NCBI GenBank assembly: GCA_019246625.1 | Contig: JAFAQB010000114.1 | Span: forward strand, 1-34,520 | Source of the DNA: Nitrososphaeraceae archaeon | GTDB lineage: Archaea > Thermoproteota > Nitrososphaeria > Nitrososphaerales > Nitrososphaeraceae | Direction of reading: 5' to 3' | Length of the DNA stretch: 34,520 bases | In this document: positions 28,083 to 31,060 of the stretch, piece after piece | How the letters are laid out: every line of letters starts with the position of its first letter | Numbering within the stretch: position 1 is the stretch's first letter | Notes under the pieces: model-generated | What the model was told of the DNA's origin: nothing | What the model saw: the letters and a program-made list of their open reading frames with translations, nothing else | Databases searched by the model: none | Position numbers and translations under genes: made by a program

Positions 28083-28454
28083 ATGGCACGAGAAAAAACA
28101 ACGTTACCATTCGAAGTTGCCTATTCGGAAAAGCCAAGCGAGAAGTCAAAAAATATGAAGAGACTCGCGTTCATTGTCAAGCCAGAAAACCTCGATGATA
28201 TCATCTTATCACTTAAAGAAATGGGCCTGGAAGCGACGATCTATGATGTAAAGAGGGCAGGAAAAGATAAGGAAAGAATGACATCAGGTAGGGGAAGTGG
28301 TACGTCTGATCTTGGATATACTACAAGAAAAATTGTGGCTACGGTAGTGAGCTCTGATCACGTCAATGAGATTGTAGATAGAATAAAAAAAACTCTCGAT
28401 GGAGATAAGGCTGTTGTCATGATTTCAGCAGTAGATGATCTTGTAATGCTCTAA
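28083..28454 (+). CDS. PII-family (GlnB/GlnK-like) signalling protein
   Basis: Trimeric sensor of ATP/ADP and 2-oxoglutarate. From residue 25 the ferredoxin-like fold reads MKRLAFIVKPENLDDIILSL; the T-loop region is KRAGKDKERMTSGRGSGTSD and the B/C-loop side is KTLDGDKAVVMISAVDDLVM. It has a 24-residue N-terminal extension (AREKTTLPFEVAYSEKPSEK) and the T-loop is shorter and more basic than in canonical GlnB and has no obvious uridylylation Tyr. No amtB is nearby, so it may be one of the stand-alone PII paralogs seen in Nitrososphaeria. Start ATG 28083; ATG 28155 is the alternative. Confidence 0.82.
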   Translation: MAREKTTLPFEVAYSEKPSEKSKNMKRLAFIVKPENLDDIILSLKEMGLEATIYDVKRAGKDKERMTSGRGSGTSDLGYTTRKIVATVVSSDHVNEIVDRIKKTLDGDKAVVMISAVDDLVML

Positions 28455-28887
28455 AAGATAGCATCACGCATAACGTGGATGACTACTACCTAAGAGCAAG
28501 ACTACTACTATCGAGGCTATTCTTGACTTCGACAAACTATGTCTAATACATTGTCGATATTGTCTAGCATAGTTATATTCGTCATCAGATAATCTGTGTC
28601 CACCTATACTATAATGGTAACCACCGAGTGAAGAAGATAAGCAAGTATTACTTGTACGATTTTCTTACAACTGTTGTAAGATAAGATCAGACAGCATATT
28701 TACCTAACGCAGCTAGTCATAAACAATAGAATTGACTTTTATTAATGGTGCCGGTAGATAGTCAAACAATTTGAATAGATGCGTCTTCAGAGTGGATCTG
28801 ATTGCAGTCTTATCGCGGTTTCACTTGTTTTTCAGACTCGATCTATGTATAATACATCGTCACAATCATCCTTGACAACAATAATTT
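28455..28887 (+). other. Intergenic region, about 430 bases, with two adjacent palindromes
   Basis: No gene or tRNA. Two perfect inverted repeats lie close together: CAAGTATTACTTG (28642-28654) and TCTTACAACTGTTGTAAGA (28663-28681). The rest has no open frame of note and may include decayed sequence related to the nirK remnant that starts at 28888. Confidence 0.5.
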
Positions 28888-29131
28888 TTACTCAACAAAA
28901 ACTTTGAAAATAGCATAAGTGGACGACCTTAAGAGCAATTTAATGTGATACTTTGAATATGCAAATGTCCAATCGATGACACAAGCCGATCTAGGTGGAA
29001 TAGTCTATGTTTAGTCATTCAAATCTTGTGTGCCATATCGATTTTCCAACGAACCAACGTGTGCGTCAATTATTCGACGAATAATTTGAAATGACATTAA
29101 CTCATTTGAAACTGCGTTGATAATATTTACG
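28888..29131 (-). pseudogene. Remnant of a second nirK-like multicopper oxidase gene
   Basis: Translating the minus strand in one frame gives NIINAVSNELMSFQIIRR, then ENRYGTQDLND, stop, T, stop, TIPPRSACVIDWTFA, which aligns with residues 253-308 of the intact NirK to the right (IVNAGPNQFLSFHIIGS, NRFGTQDINDETWTIPPGSA, SVIESTFAQ). Two in-frame stops replace E291 and W293, the catalytic His266 is Gln, and the stretch for His318 is gone. The DNA also aligns over about 150 bases with many third-position-independent changes, so it is old. It ends four bases before the PsbP-like gene, where the 5' part was lost. Clear decayed C-terminal fragment. Confidence 0.85.
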
Positions 29132-29134
29132 TTC

Positions 29135-29773
29135 TTATTTTATTATTGTAAATGAATTTATCATATGTTCCGTGACCTCTAAATATTTGGTGAATTGTGA
29201 TCTAGCCTGAGTATACGAAATATTGTAGGCCTTGCCCTGCTTTATAGTCCATACATTCATTGATGTAAACGGAATTTGTATAGCAGGATCTGGACTTAGA
29301 AAAGTATACACTATTCTATGCGCTGGGATTCCTGCTAAAGTAGTAGCATTTGATTCAATAAGCTGAAAACGGGCTAAGGACTGTTTTGCTTTAGCCAAAT
29401 TTGCATTAGTGTAATTGTCTAAAGATATATTTTTTTTCAGATTTTCGACTGATATCGTAATTGTTGCTGGAGAGACATCAGAACTATTTTTTAATGTAGA
29501 GGTAAGCTGGGCTATGAACTTATCAGCATAAGGATGCTCATCTAATTTCCAACTCGCAGGATATTCTATCCTTATTCCGTGATTGGGATTCGTATATACT
29601 AGGAATTTGTTTACTGTTCTTGTTGCATTAGCATCGGAAGGGGCATCAATACTGTTCACTGTACTTTGTGCCAGTGCTTTTTGTCGTTGAAAAGTGGATA
29701 ATGCAGTATTACCAATTAATGATAACAATACTATTGTTATTGTTATAAGGAAAGCCAGGCGAATTGTGGACAT
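29135..29773 (-). CDS. Secreted PsbP-like protein
   Basis: Exported protein with signal peptide (LAFLITITIVLLSLIGNTAL) and a compact alpha/beta domain that starts LVYTNPNHGIRIEYPASWKL, the opening strand of PsbP/DUF1795-like folds, and ends TIKQGKAYNISYTQARSQF followed by MINSFTII. These proteins are common at the surface of Nitrososphaerales but their role is unknown. 212 residues. It sits between the intact nirK (29945) and the nirK remnant, so it was possibly involved in the rearrangement that truncated the latter. Confidence 0.75.
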   Translation of the reverse strand: MSTIRLAFLITITIVLLSLIGNTALSTFQRQKALAQSTVNSIDAPSDANATRTVNKFLVYTNPNHGIRIEYPASWKLDEHPYADKFIAQLTSTLKNSSDVSPATITISVENLKKNISLDNYTNANLAKAKQSLARFQLIESNATTLAGIPAHRIVYTFLSPDPAIQIPFTSMNVWTIKQGKAYNISYTQARSQFTKYLEVTEHMINSFTIIK

Positions 29774-29944: not shown

Positions 29945-31060
29945 CTAAGCTGTACCTGCAGCAGGTAGGCATTTGCCGTTGGGCAATTGCGCTGGAGTTG
30001 GACTCCCTGGTGGTGGTACGCATGTATGCAATGGCTGGTCGTTTGCAGTTGAATTATTAGCAGCTAATATCGCAAATGCTCCGCCCTTCAAGGCTGCAGT
30101 CAAGGCATGGGTTAGACCAACGTATAGACCTGGTTGTGCGAATGTCGATTCAATTACCGAAGCCGATCCAGGTGGTATAGTCCATGTTTCGTCATTAATA
30201 TCTTGCGTGCCAAATCTATTTACAACAAAACCATCGCGCACGGTGATTATACTTCCAATAATATGGAATGATAGGAACTGATTGGGACCGGCATTGACAA
30301 TAAACCACCTTGTCAATTCTCCCGGTTTGACTTTGAAGACTTCAGCATTCTTGTTAAGCACAATTTTGACAACATTTCCAATTGCAGGCACATACTTGTG
30401 TGCCATACCATTAGTCAAGATCAAATCGGGCTGGTTGTTGAGGAATTTGGTTATATCAAATGAACCAGTCTTTCCATTAGTACCTTTGAATATTCCTTGG
30501 TCCGCTGTGTTGTAATTTTCACCAAAAACTACGTAGAATTCTTTTGCTGGTGCCTCATTTCTAGGATGTACTATAATACCACCATACATACCACTGGAAA
30601 TATGCTCCCATATACCATTAAGGGCGTCGGCGCTGCAATGGTAAAAGAAAGCACCTCCATAGGTACCATGTAGCGTCCATGTCTTAGATTGACCTGGATT
30701 TACGGTCCCAGAATTCGCCTCATTAGCGCCAAAACCTGCATGAAAGTCCAAACTATGCACTAACTTACCCTCGTTTTTCAATGTAAGTTGTAAAGTATCT
30801 CCCTGATCGATTGCAACGATTGGACCGGGGATGGAACCATTGAAAACCATAGCATTGTATTTGATTCCACCGGGGTGAAGAGCATTATCCGGAGCCACCT
30901 GCACTACTTTTTCACTTGCAATTAAAAGAGCTTTTTTTGTTTTGCCTGTAGAGGCTTGTGCCTGTACCTTAGAAGGGAATGTTCCTGACATAAGAGGACT
31001 AAAAATAATTCCTGCAACAAGGACGCCTACTACTAGGCCTGCAATAACAGCCGTTTTCAT
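29945..31060 (-). CDS. nirK: Copper-containing nitrite reductase (NirK-like multicopper oxidase)
   Basis: Secreted two-domain cupredoxin that reduces nitrite to NO and is highly expressed in most ammonia-oxidising archaea. After the signal peptide (residues 1-35) the type 1 copper ligands are H102, C142, H153 and M158 (HSLDFH, YHCSAD, WEHISSGM), the type 2 ligands are H107, H141 and H318, and the catalytic pair D105 and H266 is present; spacing agrees with bacterial NirK. The 25-residue C-terminal tail has two Cys (HTCVPPPG, NGKCLPAAG) that could form a disulfide. 371 residues. TATA boxes 31081-31092 give a leaderless start. Divergently or alone transcribed. Confidence 0.93.
   Translation of the reverse strand: MKTAVIAGLVVGVLVAGIIFSPLMSGTFPSKVQAQASTGKTKKALLIASEKVVQVAPDNALHPGGIKYNAMVFNGSIPGPIVAIDQGDTLQLTLKNEGKLVHSLDFHAGFGANEANSGTVNPGQSKTWTLHGTYGGAFFYHCSADALNGIWEHISSGMYGGIIVHPRNEAPAKEFYVVFGENYNTADQGIFKGTNGKTGSFDITKFLNNQPDLILTNGMAHKYVPAIGNVVKIVLNKNAEVFKVKPGELTRWFIVNAGPNQFLSFHIIGSIITVRDGFVVNRFGTQDINDETWTIPPGSASVIESTFAQPGLYVGLTHALTAALKGGAFAILAANNSTANDQPLHTCVPPPGSPTPAQLPNGKCLPAAGTA

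Follow-up and report, generated by a model that had tools for sequence, protein, structure and literature searches.

The intergenic region between a PsbP-like and a P-II-like gene raises the question of whether a nirK-like stretch on its minus strand (28888-29131) is what remains of a second copy of the nirK gene nearby and, if so, how that copy arose. The window, the whole stretch of 34,520 nucleotides that was analysed, is contig C308 of a 3.96-Mb assembly of a Nitrososphaeraceae archaeon that is 96.8% complete and carries one archaeal amoA. The genes on the minus strand are ordered HtrA-like protease, small zinc-finger-like ORF, nirK, PsbP-like gene and fragment; the P-II-like gene lies on the plus strand, convergent towards the fragment (Table 1). 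The small ORF next to nirK gave no Pfam match, and its name was given by eye. We measured 813 bp between the fragment and the intact nirK, with the PsbP-like gene in between, in keeping with the initial annotation, which had put the distance at less than 1 kb. The same annotation let the PsbP-like gene begin four bases past the fragment; read on the coding strand, it is the end of psbP that lies just before the fragment, its stop codon (29135-29137) adjoining the 5' edge of the fragment on the same strand. Family members align up to the last residues of the PsbP-like protein. Its C-terminus is thus complete, which places the break within about ten bases past the psbP stop. The P-II-like gene has homologues of up to 74% identity across the family, in other contexts. 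Another P-II-like sequence, with three in-frame TAA codons, is found in the same genome (L131, G000:C35:3354-3659) and is possibly a further pseudogene.

Table 1. Coordinates of the nirK relic and of the genes around it in the window.
Feature	Position	Strand	Basis
nirK pseudogene fragment, well-supported core (nirK residues 254-309)	28960..29126	-	DNA identity, shuffles, tree
Weakly matching fragment tail (about nirK residues 310-332, gapped)	28906..28959	-	composition-adjusted tblastn only
Two in-frame stop codons of the fragment	29013-29011, 29007-29005	-	translation in nirK frame
Intact nirK (371 aa) with complete copper ligands, probably encoding a copper-containing nitrite reductase	29945..31060	-	TIGR02376, PDB matches, ligand residues
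Gene for a PsbP-like protein of 212 aa, separating nirK from the fragment	29135..29773	-	PF18933 PsbP_2, 38.3 bits, above cut-off
P-II-like protein gene, bounding the intergenic region with the fragment	28083..28454	+	PF00543, 30.8 bits

Positions 28960-29125 of the fragment align to the intact nirK with 73.5% DNA identity over 166 bp (blastn, E 4e-24). Comparison with shuffled sequence, which had been set as a test that could refute the match, gave a local score of 115 for the fragment, whereas 2000 dinucleotide-preserving shuffles averaged 21 and peaked at 32, none doing as well (0/2000); the similarity exceeds chance. At the protein level nirK residues 254-316 matched the fragment with 51% identity (tblastn, E 1e-12), and with composition adjustment a gapped match in a 680-bp stretch reached residue 332 (44%, E 1e-16). 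The alignment of residues 254-309 is ungapped and strong, and that of residues 310-332 is weak; this tail lies outside the DNA alignment and was seen only in the composition-adjusted search. The homology signal of the fragment rests on 56 codons. The initial annotation had the coordinates, strand and nirK-like content of the fragment right, and the match that it drew to NirK residues 253-330 is clear for residues 254-309 and weakly supported for 310-330. These alignments demonstrate homology, and the stretch 28888-29131 is recognisable as a decayed nirK remnant. A search of the whole genome for other nirK matches returned the intact gene, the fragment and one short weak match (E 0.03).

The product of the intact nirK is a probable copper-containing nitrite reductase. 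It matches TIGR02376 with an E value of 5e-48, scoring under the equivalog cut-off of that model, and among PDB entries copper nitrite reductases match it best. It has every copper ligand as well as the second-shell residues Asp105 and His266, with roles that we take to be those known from bacterial NirK. The fragment lacks the first cupredoxin domain and the type-1 copper site, has Gln in place of the second-shell His266, and does not retain the type-2 copper ligand His318, which falls in its gapped, decayed part. A predicted product without both cupredoxin domains and the copper ligands cannot be a functional copper nitrite reductase.

Fragment and nirK differ at 47 positions over 57 codons (14/11/22 at codon positions 1/2/3). 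When changes were polarised with outgroups, 19 fell in the fragment (5/7/7 by codon position) and 6 in nirK. The pair has a dN of 0.28 and a dS of 0.60 (Nei-Gojobori), and the resulting dN/dS of 0.46 compares with 0 to 0.3 for functional pairs. Of 12 positions with family-wide conservation of 90% or more, 6 are off consensus in the fragment, and two of these changes are common to the window nirK. Its end branch in the DNA tree (0.38) is about 4.6 times longer than that of the window nirK (0.082). Decay of the fragment is evident from the two in-frame stops, the lost catalytic His, the changes over all three codon positions and the long branch; the stops, the missing His and the decay had all been read correctly from the start, and the dN/dS agrees with them. 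Such a pattern is expected when one partner drifts free of constraint.

Other nirK-like genes of the family also depart from the usual form. A divergent clade of NirK-like proteins from nine genomes (L149-L156 and L158) keeps all copper ligands, but Asn replaces the catalytic second-shell His (position of His266 in the window nirK) in 9/9 and the second-shell Asp (position of Asp105) in 7/9; nitrite reduction by these proteins may not follow the usual course. In-frame stops were found in two nirK-like genes of relatives, L157 (G033:C67:13018-14258) and L155 (G042:C8:35749-37011); the reading frame of L157 is also split, and its type-1 copper His is Arg. Both genes point either to nirK decay in other family members or to errors in the assemblies.

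The relationship of the fragment was read from a DNA tree of 51 rows and 171 shared columns, comprising the fragment, the window nirK and 49 further family genes that are nirK or nirK-like. Grouping with a different multicopper oxidase had been named as a second refutation test; the fragment instead joins the window's own nirK as its sister, with support of 100/98. The two share Ile267 and Ala308; in the rest of the family the first of these positions is Phe in 49/49 sequences and the second is Pro in 45/48. Synonymous divergence between the window nirK and the four relatives compared is saturated, whereas that to the fragment is about 0.6. The relatives compared are family genomes of other genera, and the window is the sole representative of its genus among the genomes analysed. 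Sister grouping, shared residues and the low dS together demonstrate that the duplication postdates the split from every sampled genus. A piece of another multicopper oxidase is ruled out by the tree, by Ile267 and Ala308 and by dS. We are confident that the fragment represents a decayed duplicate of this lineage's own nirK, whatever the mode by which it was copied.

An older, pre-existing nirK paralogue or other multicopper oxidase that came to lie near nirK by chance could also leave such a fragment. In many family members at least two nirK-like genes do occur, on separate contigs, and in protein identity several other nirK (50-54% over 54 residues) come about as close to the fragment as the window nirK does (51%). 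The DNA tells otherwise, with no other gene exceeding 63% identity to the fragment against 73.5% for the window nirK, and an old paralogue is hard to square with the sister grouping, the two common residues and a dS of only 0.6. Tree and shared residues largely refute such an origin, which on these comparisons would be very improbable. Retention of the fragment as a regulatory element deserves even less credence. Here transcription reading through from the convergent P-II gene would yield a plus-strand RNA that acts as a weak antisense to the nirK mRNA, to which it would be partly complementary, and the convergent intergenic position suits this; but the longest exact match of the fragment anywhere in nirK is 13 bases, at a non-homologous site, an Rfam search gave no match, changes are spread evenly across the codon positions, and the fragment is conserved in no relative.

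The simplest account of the locus is a local duplication with later deletion. In brief, nirK was duplicated, most likely locally, in this ammonia-oxidizing, amoA-positive lineage of the Nitrososphaeraceae, and truncation would then have removed roughly the first 250 codons of the extra copy together with its C-terminal end. What was left, a piece of the second cupredoxin domain, escaped selection and drifted, acquiring two stops and a Gln in place of the catalytic His; the relic is now non-coding in the 3' flank of psbP, with the intact nirK doing the work. We consider it likely that a full second nirK once stood here and was truncated and decayed after a duplication that was most likely local; none of the tests contradicts duplication followed by decay. 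Of the tandem duplication, truncation and decay originally proposed, duplication and decay stand; the tandem mode, to which only proximity points, and a deletion at the psbP junction are presumed.

We did not find traces of the remainder of the copy. Homology between the flanks of the fragment and those of the intact nirK was no better than shuffles; unconstrained flanks may have eroded or been deleted. No further remnants scored above shuffles in the nirK-psbP spacer, in 28455-28900 or in the 3' flank. Two intact adjacent nirK copies occurred in none of the family loci examined, second copies lying on other contigs or far away, and no conserved synteny of the window genes was seen at the nirK, PsbP and P-II loci of relatives. 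Searched against 69 family genomes, the fragment DNA matched only in pieces of 24-51 bases (E 4e-4 or worse). As no remnant of other parts or flanks is visible, a tandem duplication, a local re-insertion and a partial copy would all look alike here. In the last case only a 3' piece of nirK would ever have been pasted downstream of psbP, e.g. by template switching or ectopic recombination, and never a full second gene. Only residues 254 to about 309-332 are represented, the first of them lying about 10 nt or less from the psbP stop; this and the missing rest and flanks fit such an event, yet old deletions are expected to leave the same picture, and the dN/dS suits partial copy and full-copy decay alike. 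We hold a partial copy to be unlikely, though deserving of some weight.

Duplication of nirK has parallels in these archaea. Soil ammonia-oxidizing archaea often have more than one nirK, the phylogeny of which departs from the species tree (PMC10579303), and two NirK were reported for Ca. N. evergladensis (PMC4084955). Our 51-row tree contains sister pairs of intact nirK within each of three genomes (G042, G030 and G067), so lineage-specific duplicates recur in the family. These duplicates are likewise within-lineage and recent, but both copies are intact and on separate contigs, whereas here one is a relic beside the other. Compared with its source gene, the archaeal NirK of ammonia-oxidizing Nitrososphaeraceae, the fragment is cut to about 56-79 codons, with two stops and the catalytic His lost. 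Truncation, stops, relaxed selection and lack of conservation in relatives are all as in an ordinary prokaryotic duplication pseudogene, with no notable difference. A literature search found no earlier report of this nirK relic. Because nirK is multicopy in soil ammonia oxidizers and sister pairs occur in the family, an occasional decayed copy is to be expected, and the finding is an ordinary one.

As a pseudogene the fragment is otherwise of little wider importance. The copy number of nirK varies in soil ammonia-oxidizing archaea, and the role of the enzyme is unsettled. Within the gain and loss of nirK in this group the fragment is one documented loss event: a lineage with a single nirK today formerly had extra nirK sequence.
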